Assembly: GCA_021811485.1 (NCBI GenBank)
Contig: JAJZOO010000002.1
Location: 1-55,273 of the forward strand
Length of the DNA: 55,273 nt
Source of the DNA: an archaeon
GTDB taxonomy: Archaea; Thermoproteota; Nitrososphaeria; Nitrososphaerales; Gagatemarchaeaceae
Reading direction: 5' to 3'
This document shows, in pieces, positions 2,591 to 9,500 of the stretch. The position numbers were made by a program, and so were the translations under genes. Each line of letters starts with the position of its first letter. Positions within the stretch are counted from its first letter, which is position 1. The notes below the pieces were generated by a model that searched no databases, had not been told where the DNA came from, and saw only the letters and a program-made list of their open reading frames with translations.

Positions 2591-3187
2591 TCATCTCCCC
2601 GGCGATACGTAGTCCTTGCGGAGGGGAGGGAGGTCGTTCCAGTCTTCGGGGAGGAAGAGGTGGCTCTGGTCGGGGTGCCCCTGGAAGTTTATCCCGAACA
2701 TCTCGTGCGTCTCCCTCTCCTGGTACTCCGCGCCCTTCCATACCCCGATCAGGGTCGGGACTACGGGGTTGTCCCGGGGGATCCTCTCGGAAACGGCAAG
2801 GACGAAGTCCTCCTGACCGTGGGTCGTGGATCCCACGAAGTAGATCACTTCCAGCTCATTCTTCGCGATCCAGTCGACTCCGCTGACCGCGCTGATGTGA
2901 TTGAATCCGAGCGAGTCCCGGGCGAAGAGGGCCACGTCCTTGATCGTGTTCGGAGAGGCGGAGACCTTCAGGCGCCGTGGCTTCATCCACTCGACCTTCG
3001 CTGTGGGTTGACTCGACGTTATCCTTGTGGCGAGGGCCTTCGCCCTGTCCAGATCCGGACTCGGCGCGGGGGCGGAAGCCGCAGCGGGGGGAGACGGGGT
3101 CGCAGGCTTAGCCGGCTGCGTGGGGGCGGAGAGCGGAGGTGAAGCTGGCTTGGCAGGCTCGCTCTCTTTGCTCATTTTGTGCTTCAC
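2591..3187 (-). CDS. nuoC: NADH-quinone oxidoreductase subunit C (30 kDa)
   Basis: The 198-residue subunit supports the quinone module of complex I at the membrane interface. Its C-terminal third carries the family signature: [19 protein letters not shown], then LFLPEDW and PPLRKDY. The first about 50 residues are a low-complexity Pro/Ala/Ser segment (many PAKPA-like units) that bacterial NuoC lacks and that is probably disordered. The start ATG overlaps the nuoB stop as ATGA, so translation is likely coupled. The NuoC core is standard; only the N-terminal tail is unusual. Confidence 0.95.
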
Positions 3188-4938
3188 CGGCCGCCAAGGG
3201 TCGGCATCCGTCTGATCTTCTCTTGCAAAAGCACTATCCCCTGAATCAGTGCCTCGGCCCTCGGAGGGCAGCCTGGGACGTACACGTCTACCGGTATGAT
3301 GTCGTCGATGCCCCTGAGGACGTTGTAGGAGTCGAAGTAGAGTCCGCCGGTGATCGAGCAGTTGTGGACCAGCTCACCGTTGGCGAAGTAGTTGTGGTGG
3401 CCCTCCACCTCGATGTCGTAGACCTGCTCTCTTCCTCGGGGGATGATAGAGGTGACCCTCTGGAGGGCGATTCCTGGGTGATTGGTCTTGAGGAGAGATC
3501 TGCCGTCGAATGAACGGGAGCCACGCTTTGTCCGACTTTGGTAACCAGGTCTGTGCAGTGGGAGCTTCGCCACAGTTTCGGCGGGGAATGAAACTGCGTA
3601 TTCTTTCGCTTCGAGGTACCTTTCTTTCAGGATATCCCCTTTCTCCTTCTCGAAGACGCCGCCGACGCGTATGCCGCGGTAGTGGCAGAGTTCGACGACG
3701 TCACGCATCAGATCGTAGTTGTCTGAGCTTAGTTGGGCGGAACCCTGCTCCTCCACGCTGCCATCGGATTCAATCAGGCCGGCGAGGAAGCCGTAGACAG
3801 AAGTCGAGGGCAGGGGGTAGACCCAACCGGGGACGCGCTTGGAACGGACACCGCCGCGAGGGAGAAGCGACTGCTCGGACGCTCCAGAGGCCGCCTCGGG
3901 CTGAGTCTCGGCCTGGCGAGTCGCCCAGGCACCCACTGCAAACGACCCGTTCGCTCCCTGAGAGAGATGCCGCCTTGACAAGTCTTCCCCCGTTTGGGAG
4001 GAGGCTCCTCGTGGCCCCGCGCTCCAGCCGTCTCCAGGGTGGAGGCCCGCAAGCCACGCGAGATTATCGTCCGCGGACCGTGAGACTCTGACCTTGTTCC
4101 TCAGCCCTCCATCGTGTGAGCGATTGATATTGTAGGGCGTATCTATGACGGGCGCGGCGAATGTTCCCAGCAAATCGCCTTCCTTCACCTGATTGAAGCG
4201 CTTCCACACTATATCCAGCCCGAATTGGGCTGGGGGATGCCGTCTCCAATTGGAGAGAGTCTTGGCACTTTCTCCCACCAACGGAGCGATTTCTCGCAGT
4301 GTGAATCCCTCTTCGAGCAATCCGAGTACAGACTGGTAGGTGATCCACCTCCGCGAGAGCGTCCGCTCGTAAACCGCGAAGGGATGGTCCTCCGTGGCCA
4401 CCAACTCATAGGCACCTGCGCGGAGCCTCCACACGTCCTTACTCCCCTGGTCCTTGTTGGCCACCACCTGGCCGGTGATCACCCTCTTGCGTTGCTCGTC
4501 GTAGGTAAGAACGAGCTCCCCGGGACCCACGCCGTCGATTCGTTTGACGCCGTTGGGTGTGTAGACCAGCGAATCGCCCCGAAGACAAGCGCCCATGGCA
4601 ATGGTCCACTTCGGCTCCGCCATCTGGTCGTAGATGAGCTTCAGTCTCGGGGCCAGCTTCCTCGTCACGGTCCCCATGACTATGATGAGGTCGCAGGCGC
4701 GGAGCGAGCCGAACGCCTCCAGCGTGCCGAAGCGCTCTATGTCGAATCTCGAACCGGCGGCCGCCCCGACCTCGACTGAGCAGCAGGCCGTTTCGAGGTG
4801 CACGGGCCAGAGGGAATAGAGGCGTCCCCAGTTGGCAAGGTAGCGCAGCGGGTCTCCGATGGCGTACTGGAGTACGTCGTCTATCTTGCCTACGAGGACC
4901 TGGAAGCTCCCGGTCTTCTGTTGCTGCGCGGCTACCAA
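3184..4938 (-). CDS. nuoB: NADH-quinone oxidoreductase subunit B interrupted by an intein
   Basis: The reading frame is 584 residues long, but NuoB proteins are about 160-180. Residues 1-117 and 527-584 are the two exteins; joined they make a 175-residue NuoB that binds the [4Fe-4S] cluster N2 next to quinone. The ligands are the CC pair (52-53), the cysteine restored by splicing (527, in MGA-CSITGG) and the cysteine of VPGCPP (557). Residues 118-526 are the intein, inserted directly before the third ligand. Without splicing the subunit could not assemble cluster N2. The start overlaps the nuoA end by 7 nt and the stop overlaps the nuoC start. Extein sequence and codon use look like the rest of the operon. 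Confidence 0.95.
3361..4587 (-). mobile_element. Intein with LAGLIDADG-type endonuclease region inside nuoB
   Basis: This 409-residue Hint-type intein begins with Cys ([13 protein letters not shown], block A) and ends GELVHN before extein Cys+1, so the splice junctions are canonical. Block B is VATEDHPF, with the TxxH motif around intein residue 68. Block F is [17 protein letters not shown]. Two LAGLIDADG-like motifs remain: [10 protein letters not shown] (NuoB residues 296-305) and [12 protein letters not shown] (384-395), both with their acidic residue. An extra helix-turn-helix-like segment (about 203-232, [20 protein letters not shown]) sits between block B and the first motif. The part between the two endonuclease motifs (about 306-365) is low-complexity and looks degenerate. 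Splicing residues appear intact; endonuclease activity is uncertain. Confidence 0.93.
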
Positions 4939-5849: not shown

Positions 5850-6275
5850 CTAGTCGACGCCGTGGACCTCTTCGTCTTCTTCCTTGAGAAACGCGTTGAT
5901 GAGCTTGTTTTCGCGGAAGAAGTCCTTGATGGACAGCACACCAAACAGGGTCCCATCGTCGTTCTCCACCACGAGATGCCTTATCCCGTTGTCCGTCATC
6001 AGTCTCACTGCGGTCGATGGCCTGTCCGAGCGTTTGACGCTGATTAGCTTCTTCGTCGACACGGCGTCCAGTCGCCCCGAGAGGGCGACCCCCTTGGCGA
6101 CCGCCCTGACCACGTCCCTTTCTGAGAGGACGGCCTGGGCTCGGACCGGGCTGACCGAAGACGCGACGACCAGCAGGCCGATCTTCTCCCTGGCGAACAC
6201 TTCTGCAGCCTGCTTTATGGTGGCGCCGGGGCTTATGGTCACCGGACTGCGCTTGACCAGGGCCTCGACCCTCAA
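5850..6275 (-). CDS. CBS-domain pair protein
   Basis: This protein of about 141 residues consists of two CBS domains: VKRSPVTISPGATIKQAAEVFA...SERDVVRAVAKG and VKRSDRPSTAVRLMTDNGIRHLVVE...GVLSIKDFFREN. Such pairs (Bateman modules) bind adenosine nucleotides and act as energy sensors. I choose the TTG at 6275, which overlaps the citrate synthase stop as TTGA, so the two genes are probably translationally coupled. Upstream in-frame sequence is only the shadow of citrate synthase. The pairing suggests that the CBS protein reports adenylate state to carbon metabolism, but this is inferred from position only. It ends with an acidic tail. Confidence 0.85.
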   Translation of the reverse strand: MRVEALVKRSPVTISPGATIKQAAEVFAREKIGLLVVASSVSPVRAQAVLSERDVVRAVAKGVALSGRLDAVSTKKLISVKRSDRPSTAVRLMTDNGIRHLVVENDDGTLFGVLSIKDFFRENKLINAFLKEEDEEVHGVD

Positions 6276-7513
6276 GTTCTCGACCTCTTGGGGCTTCGGG
6301 TCTCGATGGGGGCGTAGGCCGTGAGCTGCGGCCCGACGTAGTCCGAGATCGGCCTGATTATCCTGTTGTCGGCGTACTGCTCCAAGACGTGTGCGAGCCA
6401 ACCGGGGGCACGGCCCACGGCGAACACGGGGGTGAACAGATATGCGGGCACCCCTACATGGTTCAGCGCCAAGCCCGAGAAGAGGTCGACGTTGGGGTGG
6501 AGGTTCTTCTCCTTCAGAAGTATGGCCTCGGTCCCCTTGATAATCTCCAGCGACTCCTTCTCCTTCTGTGTCCTGACGAAGTGCGCCGCCATGTCGCTGA
6601 GTATCTTCGCCCTCGGGTCCATGGTCTTGTAGACCCTGTGGCCGAAGCCGTTGATCTTCACCTTGCTCGCAAGCTTTCCGCGGATGTACGCGTCTACGTT
6701 GGCCGGGGAGCCGATCTCGGCGGTCATCTCGACCACCTTCTCATTGGCGCCCCCGTGGAGCGGGCCCTTGAGCGCCCCCACCGCGCCGGTGACGGCAGAG
6801 TAGATGTCTGAAAGAGTCGAAGCGATTATCCTTGCGGTGAAGGTCGACGCGTTGAACTCGTGGTCGGCGTGGAGTATCAAGAGTACGTCCATCAGCCTCG
6901 CATCCTCCTCAGACGGGACCTTGCCCGACACCATGTAGAGGAAATTGGTCGCGAAGGAGAGGTCTTCGCGGGGCGCGACCACCGCCTGCCCGTGCTTATG
7001 CCTGTGGATCGCCGCCACTATGGTCCCCATCTTGGCCGCTATCGACATAGCCCTCTCCTGCTGCGAGTACATCGGGTCGTCGAAGACTCCCAGGGCGGCT
7101 ACCCCGACCCTCAGCGCGTCCATCGTGTCGCAGTTCTGCGGTAGGGTGGTGAGGATCGAGACCAGCTCGCGCGGTATCTCGCGCTTCGCGCCGAGCTCCT
7201 CGCTGAACGACTTCAGGTCGTTCACGGTCGGGAGGTGGCCGTTCCAGAGCAGGTACGTCGTCTCCTCGTAGTTGGAGTGGGCCGTGAGGTCCGCGATGTC
7301 ATAGCCGCGGTAGAGCAGTCGCCCTTCGTGGCCGTCGATGAAGGTGATCGAGCTCTTCCCGGCGACGACGTCTTCAAGCCCCTTCGCCTGAGTCGCCAGC
7401 CGGGCTATGACGTTATCCATGGTCTCCTGGTACTTCGCCATTGCCTTCAGCTTCCCGTGTGTTTCTTCAGAGACCTTTACCATCTTAGTTTCCTTGGGGT
7501 TTGCCTGTGACAT
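6272..7513 (-). CDS. gltA: Citrate synthase with N-terminal ribbon-helix-helix extension
   Basis: The protein has 413 residues. From about residue 45 it is a citrate synthase (acetyl-CoA + oxaloacetate to citrate): GLEDVVAGKSSITFIDG, LLYRGYDI, the histidine segments ILHADHEFNAST and KGPLHGGAN, and GFGHRVYKTMDPRA, which supply the catalytic His/His and substrate arginines. Residues 10-42 are an extra segment, VKVSEETHGKLKAMAKY then ETMDNVIARL, that reads as a strand, helix, turn, helix of the ribbon-helix-helix (CopG/VapB-like) fold. A perfect palindrome lies just before the start codon. The ATG is about 28 nt from a TATA box, so the mRNA is probably leaderless. The C-terminal tail is basic and overlaps the CBS gene. 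The enzyme call is firm; the DNA-binding role is inferred. Confidence 0.95.
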   Translation of the reverse strand: MSQANPKETKMVKVSEETHGKLKAMAKYQETMDNVIARLATQAKGLEDVVAGKSSITFIDGHEGRLLYRGYDIADLTAHSNYEETTYLLWNGHLPTVNDLKSFSEELGAKREIPRELVSILTTLPQNCDTMDALRVGVAALGVFDDPMYSQQERAMSIAAKMGTIVAAIHRHKHGQAVVAPREDLSFATNFLYMVSGKVPSEEDARLMDVLLILHADHEFNASTFTARIIASTLSDIYSAVTGAVGALKGPLHGGANEKVVEMTAEIGSPANVDAYIRGKLASKVKINGFGHRVYKTMDPRAKILSDMAAHFVRTQKEKESLEIIKGTEAILLKEKNLHPNVDLFSGLALNHVGVPAYLFTPVFAVGRAPGWLAHVLEQYADNRIIRPISDYVGPQLTAYAPIETRSPKRSRT

Positions 7514-7515
7514 TC

Positions 7516-7532
7516 GGTAAACCTGGTTTACC
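7516..7532. promoter_or_regulatory. Perfect palindrome at the citrate synthase promoter (candidate operator)
   Basis: GGTAAACC-T-GGTTTACC is an inverted repeat with two 8-bp arms and a 1-nt centre. It lies between the TATA box (7537-7544) and the citrate synthase ATG (7513), where a bound protein would block transcription initiation. No second copy was noticed in the window. The RHH-like N terminus of citrate synthase makes that enzyme itself a candidate binder. Confidence 0.75.
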
Positions 7533-7536
7533 AGGC

Positions 7537-7544
7537 ATATTTAG
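7537..7544 (-). promoter_or_regulatory. TATA box of citrate synthase
   Basis: On the minus strand CTAAATAT is centred 27.5 nt before the ATG at 7513, indicating a leaderless transcript. The palindrome 7516-7532 fills the gap between this box and the start. The rest of the interval 7545-7834, up to the reductase gene, shows no further gene; a weak AT-rich stretch near 7790-7800 may be the promoter of the plus-strand gene. Confidence 0.65.
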
Positions 7545-7834
7545 TATTTACCATGACGTGTAGCTTCTGCGGCTGACGGACCAAGCACGGCCCAGGCGCT
7601 GGCGGTTGAACCGCTTTGTTCACGAATTAATCGCCCTGCCATCCCTCCATCCATCCCCCGGTTCGCCTATGAGTGGTCAAATGGGCCCCATGACTTTCGC
7701 CGACGAGCAAACAGCGTCCTATTTCGGGAGCGGACGGACTTTGGCCAATTCATGGGAGAGAAGAAGGCTGCCACACCCCGCCTGGGCGATAGGTAGAAAA
7801 GCGCCGAACTTGTCGGTGAGGTCAAGGGTCAGAA

Positions 7835-8845
7835 TTGAGACTTGCCGTGGTCGGCACAGGGGTGGCAGGTGCGTATCTGCTCAACCGCCTCCCAGGGGAC
7901 GTGGAAGCCGAGGCGTACGAAATGCGGACGCAGAAGAACTGGTACACGGTCTGCGCCTGGGGGACGAGCCAGCCCTTCATCACAGACCTGGTGAAGCAGG
8001 CGGGGTTCAACTTCGACGACTACGTCCTCCACAAGGGGAAGAGCATGCGCGTCGACCTCGGCACCGAGGAAATCAGCATCCCCCTCAGGGGGCTGGTCAC
8101 CTACGACAAGCACAGGCTCACCGAGGACATGTTGAAGGGGAAGAAGGTGCACTGGGGTGCCCAGATCAAGGAGGCCAACGGGAATTTCCAGGGCTTCGAT
8201 AGCGTGGTGGACGCCACTGGGTTGCACAGGTCGCTCCTCCCGAAGGTCTCAGAGGACCTGGTGATCCCGTCGCTCGAGTACCAGGTGAAGTCCAAGGAGC
8301 TCCCCTACGACGACTTTGTGATCAAGCCCTACCCCGGGCTCACGGGATACTGGTGGTACTTCCCCCTGGGCGACGGGTTGGCCCATGTGGGAGCCGGCGA
8401 CCTTCATCACAGATACCAAGGAGATCTCGATGAGTTCGTGAAGAAGTACCACTGCGAGGTCGTCAGGAAGATTGGGAGGCCAGTCAGGGTGACCCCGCCC
8501 AAGCTCATGGAGCCATTCTTCGATGGGAAGGTCACGGGGGTGGGCGAGTCCATCGGCACCGTTTATCCGATGCTGGGGGAAGGTATAATCCCGAGCATGC
8601 AGTGCGTCAACATCTTCGTGGACCACCTGGGCGACAGAGAGGGGTACAGAAAGGCGGTCCTGGATCACTACGCGGCCTACGCCAAGGTCTACGAGTTCAT
8701 CAAAGCCAAGGCGGAGGACAGGTTCAGCCTGATGAAGATGTGGCCCACGCTCCTGTCTGTCTTCTTCTACATGAGGGGGAACGAGAGACGCTTCGGCCTG
8801 CAGACGAGGCTGAACGACTTCTTCAAGGTAGTCATGAGGCTCTAG
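7835..8845 (+). CDS. Geranylgeranyl-reductase-like FAD-dependent oxidoreductase
   Basis: The 336-residue flavoprotein begins at a TTG with the dinucleotide-binding motif RLAVVGTGVAGAYLLNRL. It has the second family segment VVDATGLHRSLL, then YWWYFPLGDGLAHVGAGD and VYPMLGEGIIPSM, which resemble the FAD-binding and substrate regions of the geranylgeranyl reductase/FixC group. In archaea these enzymes saturate the isoprenoid chains of membrane lipids, though some paralogues act on quinones or other polyprenyls. The AlaX-like gene starts on the base after its stop. The family call is good; the exact substrate is not set by the sequence. Confidence 0.8.
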   Translation: MRLAVVGTGVAGAYLLNRLPGDVEAEAYEMRTQKNWYTVCAWGTSQPFITDLVKQAGFNFDDYVLHKGKSMRVDLGTEEISIPLRGLVTYDKHRLTEDMLKGKKVHWGAQIKEANGNFQGFDSVVDATGLHRSLLPKVSEDLVIPSLEYQVKSKELPYDDFVIKPYPGLTGYWWYFPLGDGLAHVGAGDLHHRYQGDLDEFVKKYHCEVVRKIGRPVRVTPPKLMEPFFDGKVTGVGESIGTVYPMLGEGIIPSMQCVNIFVDHLGDREGYRKAVLDHYAAYAKVYEFIKAKAEDRFSLMKMWPTLLSVFFYMRGNERRFGLQTRLNDFFKVVMRL

Positions 8846-9298
8846 TTGAGCGCAGAAGAGCTCAAGACCCACTCCGCCGTTCACGTCCTCAAGGGGGCGG
8901 TCCAGAGGGTGCTGGGCGCGAAGTGGACGGCGTCGGTGCACGTCTCGGAGAGGCACGGGAGGCTGACGGTCAAGTTCGACAGGGAGCCTACCGGCGAGGA
9001 GCTGTCAGCGATAGAACGGCTCGCCAACGAGGAGATTGCCGCAGGGGCCGAGGTGCTGGAGTTCGAGATGGAGCGCCAGGAAGCTGAGGGGCACTTCGGG
9101 GACGCGATCTACGACCTCTTCCCCGTCCCACCTGAGGTGACGCTGCTGAAGATAGTGAGGATACCTGACTGGAACATCAACTGCTGCAACGAGCCCCACG
9201 TCGACAGCACCCTGCGGATTGGGGGGATCAGCCTCGGTAAGCCCAGGTTCAGGCACTCCCGGGGAGAGCTTGAGCTGGAGTTCGACCTGGCAGAGTGA
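8846..9298 (+). CDS. AlaX-like trans-editing domain protein (tRNA-Ala deacylase family)
   Basis: The 150-residue protein resembles the second-additional (SAD) editing domain of threonyl/alanyl-tRNA synthetases. The zinc ligands are visible: H9 and H13 in HSAVH, and C114 and H118 in CCNEPHVDST. Stand-alone proteins of this type hydrolyse mischarged Ser- or Gly-tRNA(Ala). It lacks the N-terminal beta-barrel domain of the longer AlaX forms. The TTG start follows the reductase stop (TAG) directly, so the two are co-transcribed. A tRNA gene follows 40 nt downstream. Confidence 0.75.
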   Translation: MSAEELKTHSAVHVLKGAVQRVLGAKWTASVHVSERHGRLTVKFDREPTGEELSAIERLANEEIAAGAEVLEFEMERQEAEGHFGDAIYDLFPVPPEVTLLKIVRIPDWNINCCNEPHVDSTLRIGGISLGKPRFRHSRGELELEFDLAE

Positions 9299-9339
9299 AC
9301 AGGAACAGGTAATATCATGGTTCTTTTCGGGCCCTGGCT

Positions 9340-9428
9340 GGGCCCGTAGCGCAGTACGGATAGCGCGGCAGCCTCCTACACGCCGTGGAGCGAGCTGTAG
9401 GTCGTGCGTTCAAATCGCACCGGGCCCG
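9340..9428 (+). tRNA. tRNA-Arg (CCT) with a 14-nt intron
   Basis: Acceptor GGGCCCG pairs with CGGGCCC (9421-9427), followed by discriminator G. The D stem is GCGC/GCGC and the T arm is GTGCG-TTCAAAT-CGCAC. The anticodon stem is GCAGC/GCTGT and the loop reads CT-CCT-A before the intron. The intron is 9379-9392, at the canonical position 37/38. A bulge-helix-bulge is easy to draw: central helix CTCC/GGAG, with 3-nt bulges TAC and CGA. The mature RNA is 75 nt. A TATA-like TAATATCA is centred about 27 nt upstream. Confidence 0.93.
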
Positions 9429-9500
9429 TCTTCAACCGATTTTCTGGTGCCGTTCAACAACATAGGTTTATTTCGTCAGCGAAGAACGCAGCCTTGCGAA

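Follow-up and report, generated by a model that had tools for sequence, protein, structure and literature searches.

Does the citrate synthase encoded in this 55,273-nt stretch of archaeal DNA (hereafter, the window) act as the repressor of its own gene? The question was raised by a first-pass annotation, which read the open reading frame as a citrate synthase with an extra N-terminal segment of ribbon-helix-helix (RHH) type and placed a perfect palindrome in its promoter. We compared the enzyme, the segment and the promoter with those of relatives, and found that the promoter feature is better described as an array of 9-bp boxes that accompanies the N-terminal extension; the comparison points to autogenous repression.

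The RHH-citrate synthase and its locus

Profile searches bear out the reading of the gene as a citrate synthase with an additional N-terminal segment (Table 1). PF00285 matches residues 45-388 (E = 1.2e-132; 442.7 bits vs. a cut-off of 27) and TIGR01800 scores 461.7 bits, which exceeds its cut-off of 421.3, while residues 10-42 are additional to the citrate synthase family. Residues H253, H292 and D343, which we take to be the catalytic His, His and Asp of citrate synthase, are invariant across 18 relatives. TIGR01800 spans citrate and 2-methylcitrate synthases alike, and the product may be either citrate or 2-methylcitrate; a second, distant citrate synthase homolog (37% identity) that lacks the extension, encoded in a related genome (G008:C11:237308-238390) and with counterparts in several other relatives, bears on this choice.

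In most of the relatives examined, the CBS-domain gene retains its place next to the extended synthase gene, and it is probably the second gene of the synthase operon. A divergent gene (7835-8845, + strand) is weakly similar to geranylgeranyl reductase and has the intergenic region in common with the synthase gene. Elsewhere in the window, a NuoB gene (Oxidored_q6; 3184-4938, - strand) is split, next to a Cys, by an intein-like insert with weak matches to LAGLIDADG endonucleases; the NuoB gene downstream of the synthase in a relative without the RHH extension (L031) seemingly also carries an insert, in a different place (after ...LETACC).

Table 1. Features of the RHH-citrate synthase locus (positions are those of the window).
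Feature	Position	Strand	Basis or remark
CBS-domain protein	5850..6275	-	PF00571, E = 5e-18; TTG start overlaps the TGA stop of the synthase
RHH-citrate synthase, whole gene	6272..7513	-	413 aa, ATG at 7513
Citrate synthase domain, residues 45-406	6296..7381	-	PF00285, TIGR01800, invariant H253/H292/D343
RHH-like N-terminal domain, residues 10-42	7388..7486	-	DUF7557/VAPB_antitox matches, AF2 helices, dN/dS
Non-aligning segment (RHH 5' end, promoter, start of divergent gene)	7403..7850		blastn vs. sister species
9-bp box 3, AGGTTTACC	7516..7524	-	sequence, class comparison
9-bp box 2, TGGTAAACC	7525..7533	-	pairs with box 3 into the palindrome at 7516-7532
9-bp box 1, AAATATGCC, weaker	7534..7542	-	position-specific comparison, 10 same-class genes
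TATA-like box TAAATAT (predicted)	7538..7544	-	sequence; same place as CTAATATAC / CTAAATAAAC in relatives

The extension comprises approximately 42 residues and is joined to the synthase by a linker of only a few residues. Residues 10-42 follow the pattern M-V-K-V-S-..-T-H-..-K-L-..-M-D-..-V-I-..-R-L, in which we assigned a ribbon (approximately residues 11-15), helix A (16-27) and helix B (32-44). The window's segment alone matches DUF7557 at E = 6e-4 (19.6 bits, under the Pfam cut-off of 25), as do the extensions of 17 of the 18 relatives (best 1.2e-5, all below the Pfam cut-off); VAPB_antitox is matched by five of the 18 (best 8.8e-4). In a profile search of solved structures, the antitoxin MazE7 aligned in the right register (E = 0.04) as the sole RHH-type chain, together with one unrelated, weaker match. 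A relationship of the extension to DUF7557/VapB-type antitoxin domains, of RHH type, is supported by these family matches. The CopG/VapB kinship that had been proposed is supported for VapB/DUF7557, which is the nearest family, but not for CopG membership as such; neither CopG nor MetJ gave a detectable sequence match in the extension.

From the sequence family and the predicted helices, we infer an RHH fold for the extension. AF2 modeling of the segment as a monomer (15 sequences) gave two helices (16-27 and 32-46; pLDDT 73) but did not produce a strand; because an RHH strand arises only on dimerization, such a model fits the fold without being proof of it or of the ribbon. Foldseek with the 48-residue model returned a single weak and uninformative match, to the plasmid regulator Reg576 (E = 6.1).

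The two stand-alone DUF7557 members examined also match VAPB_antitox and adjoin ParE or PIN toxin genes (one at L158:1130-1638); DUF7557 (Pfam PF24434, "unknown function") is probably an antitoxin family of RHH type. The window's genome also encodes a VapBC-like pair (VAPB_antitox and PIN; L159:982-1599, in G000:C17), and the antitoxin of this pair is related to the synthase extension.

The box array upstream of extended synthases

The 17-bp sequence GGTAAACCTGGTTTACC occurs once in the window, where it follows shortly after the TATA-like element and leaves 2 bp before the ATG. The palindrome noted in the first-pass annotation is thus present between the TATA box and the ATG, but the site does not generally take this form: a better reading of the stretch is a pair of GGTWWACC boxes at a 9-bp spacing plus a third, weaker 9-mer. 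Since GGTAAACC is the reverse complement of GGTTTACC, two tandem boxes resemble one palindrome. The palindrome by itself was rejected as evidence, with palindromes of 8-bp arms and 0-3 bp spacers giving 10 matches in the 55-kb window; it rises above chance because the corresponding position in relatives is occupied by 9-bp boxes in tandem and because the genomes contain hardly any other matching pairs.

Across 22 distinct extended genes, self-similarity of the 32-bp upstream region at a lag of 9 bp was 0.54 vs. 0.27 (z = 14 against shuffles, which overstate the significance for genes of shared ancestry). No other lag from 4 to 15 was raised, and each of the two box classes described below gave the signal alone (z = 11.4 and 8.7). 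There was no lag-9 signal in 11 non-extended genes (z = -0.7), and the upstream regions of 155 other ORFs of the same loci averaged 0.28. The extended genes therefore share an array of approximately three 9-bp boxes between the TATA box and the ATG that non-extended orthologs lack; the register of the 9-mers was set by eye, and the test is the lag statistic rather than the layout. It is the 9-bp boxes that track the extension among relatives, whereas the palindrome, whose co-occurrence with the extension had been put forward for checking, is not itself general.

Two box classes can be distinguished, each associated with its own class of RHH strand: class V, with the layout TAATAWACC-AAGTAWACC-AAGTATACC, and class T, which is roughly AATATACNR-AAGATATTG-AWTATATTN. 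Intermediates exist, as two class-T genes (L013 and L018) carry class-V-like boxes; with these intermediates, a one-residue recognition code is unsupported, and box specificity seems to drift gradually.

The array could instead be a promoter or leader feature, in the form of repeated TATA-like elements or an RNA hairpin before the start codon, that involves no dedicated DNA-binding protein. The first box does overlap the TATA-like element, and a short hairpin could form from the copy in the window; however, GTWWACC boxes are not TATA-like, the 9-bp period is missing from other upstream regions in the same genomes, and the boxes of relatives are direct or mixed repeats that make no good hairpin (e.g., L020, L021, L025). 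The TATA-like box lies approximately 30 bp upstream of the ATG and the synthase transcript is probably leaderless or nearly so, in which case a hairpin would be untranscribed. We regard a promoter or leader feature as improbable.

In every within-class pair of relatives with an estimable dS, dN is well below dS in the extension, which is often better conserved than the enzyme body; by this measure, the extension is under strong purifying selection. Such selection, and the strict co-occurrence of the periodic boxes with the extension, are at odds with the extension being a relic, in which a former RHH gene was fused by chance and now serves as a structural cap, with the repeats coincidental. 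Although the weak family scores of the extension would suit a relic, we consider this highly improbable.

The sites are also scarce outside the synthase promoters. In eight genomes, all perfect matches to the class-V pair GTWWACCNNGTWWACC (in G000, G008, G025, and G033) are located at the synthase promoter, against a chance expectation of approximately 0.08 perfect sites per Mb; when up to one mismatch is allowed, the synthase promoter is the sole site in four of the eight (G000, G008, G005, and G002). The class-T site RATATTGAWTATA behaves likewise in seven class-T genomes: its perfect matches are confined to the synthase promoter, and allowing one mismatch adds just two off-target sites. As these promoters served to define both patterns, matches there arise by construction, and the evidence lies in the scarcity of the patterns elsewhere, which is consistent with a regulator that has a single target. 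The conserved, near-unique array is a putative operator in the synthase's own promoter.

Distribution of the fusion and apparent joint replacement of domain and boxes

The extension is found in most of one family of soil and acid-water archaea within the Nitrososphaerales (family f1): it is present in five genera (g1-g5), whereas the synthases of two others (g6 and g7), including Candidatus Gagatemarchaeum (L074), are without it. No extension was identified in other families among 398 genomes of the phylum. A match in Methylomirabilota (L106) was rejected as a further fusion, having no RHH-like extension, and a profile search revealed no other obvious enzyme that carries the same domain. In open-licence full-text literature, we found no description of a fusion of citrate synthase to an RHH or other DNA-binding domain, and the main text of the Gagatemarchaeaceae genome paper makes no mention of citrate synthase (PMC10640624). 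Thus, citrate synthase as the enzyme of an autorepressing RHH fusion appears to be undescribed.

In approximately ten genomes of the family, the extension is the only protein that matches its own profile, so that a separate regulator of this type is not obvious in these genomes. This bears on the possibility that the boxes are a real operator for another regulator (for example a separately encoded RHH protein resembling VapB, or some unrelated factor), with the extension serving only in oligomerization or stability of the enzyme. Stand-alone relatives of the domain do occur in several genomes, among them the VapB beside the PIN toxin in the window's genome, and RHH domains also dimerize, with the RHH domain of PutA mediating dimerization (PMC5293562). 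Nevertheless, near-unique boxes suit a one-target regulator, namely the gene's own product, non-extended orthologs have no boxes, and several family genomes encode no further protein that matches the profile; we consider control by another regulator unlikely.

The window's gene itself combines parts of both classes. In the tree of enzyme bodies it lies within the class-T clade (support 99/97 for the six-row group), but its RHH domain and its boxes are those of class V; identity to the sister gene L005 is 93% for the body but 52% for the RHH core. Alignment by blastn against a sister species (L055) gave blocks at 5850-7402 and 7862-9433, with flanks of the gap 85-87% identical, and L057 was similar. 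Apparently, the promoter and the RHH coding end were swapped together as one unit in the window's lineage. Taken alone, the joint swap is no proof of functional coupling, as promoter and 5' end are adjacent and one recombination tract would carry both even if they were uncoupled. A search for the donor of the swapped segment gave no close match, the best being 71% over 107 bp in a class-V genome (G025).

A second RHH-citrate synthase, of class T, is present on a short contig in the window's bin (G000:C79; L002, L034) and also in bin YP3.bin16 (L076). True paralogs in the window's genome were rejected: the C79 DNA is nearly identical to G012, and the fuller genome G008 has, apart from the distant homolog, only the class-V copy. 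The C79 copy is probably misbinned.

Proposed autogenous repression and comparison with known systems

On the strength of sequence comparison and of the analogy with PutA, we consider it probable that this citrate synthase, with its antitoxin-type (VapB/DUF7557-like) RHH domain, functions as an autogenous repressor on a PutA-like principle. The earlier proposal that the enzyme represses its own gene is upheld by comparison as far as autoregulation is concerned: the boxes co-occur with the extension, are near-unique, lie between the TATA box and the start codon, and changed together with the RHH domain. Autoregulation of the synthase gene is in this comparative sense well supported.

Dimers of the RHH domain would bind adjacent 9-bp boxes, as suggested by the position of the sites and by PutA; at one dimer per box, two or three dimers could fill the stretch from TATA box to start codon. 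Bound dimers would block TBP/TFB or RNA polymerase, which would limit production of both the synthase and the CBS-domain protein that is probably encoded on the same transcript, by presumed repression rather than activation. RHH dimers of MetJ and CopG occupy adjacent short boxes 8-9 bp apart, and MetJ boxes are tandem 8-bp palindromes, comparable to the tandem palindromic GGTWWACC boxes of the synthase, although MetJ and CopG are stand-alone regulators rather than enzyme-fused RHH proteins.

The trifunctional PutA, in which an RHH domain is joined to proline dehydrogenase (PRODH) and P5C dehydrogenase (P5CDH), is the autogenous repressor of the put regulon (PMC5293562). As in PutA, an N-terminal RHH-type domain of approximately 50 residues is carried by a metabolic enzyme; autogenous repression is known for PutA and proposed here for the synthase. 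PRODH and P5CDH catalytic domains are absent from the 413-aa protein, in which citrate synthase was the only enzyme domain matched by profile searches. The protein is not a PutA, though it may work like one. Whereas PutA is a flavoenzyme, here the enzyme is an archaeal citrate synthase with an antitoxin-type RHH domain and a very short linker, and its operator would be a tandem 9-bp array that extends from TATA box to start codon; no redox or membrane switch is known for the synthase.

The complexes formed by type II toxin-antitoxin systems bind to operators within the promoters of their own genes (PMC4803016). The synthase extension resembles the VapB/DUF7557 antitoxins in sequence, but the toxin-binding tail is replaced by citrate synthase and there is no adjoining toxin gene. 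CitA of Caulobacter is described as a citrate synthase that controls the cell cycle independent of its enzymatic activity (PMC7083601); on that account a citrate synthase likewise takes on regulation in addition to catalysis, although in the form of a cell-cycle checkpoint.

More speculatively, the substrate or oligomer state of the enzyme could set its affinity for DNA, with oxaloacetate, acetyl-CoA or citrate as conjectural ligands. The synthase might then sense its substrate or product state and signal this to its own promoter via the RHH domain, which would make it a feedback switch, contained in a single protein, at the point of entry into the citric acid cycle, with a domain-operator unit that is exchangeable between species; we offer this extension of the model tentatively, and hold it to be less probable than autogenous repression as such.

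Few enzymes act directly as repressors, the classic case with an RHH domain being PutA. If the proposed autogenous repression is correct, the RHH-citrate synthase would be a second, independent RHH enzyme-repressor, archaeal and probably derived from a toxin-antitoxin part. With its two classes of operator and a swap that occurred naturally, the family would provide a ready test set for the evolution of RHH specificity, and the fusion would indicate that central metabolism can co-opt the DNA-binding domains of antitoxins as modules for autoregulation.
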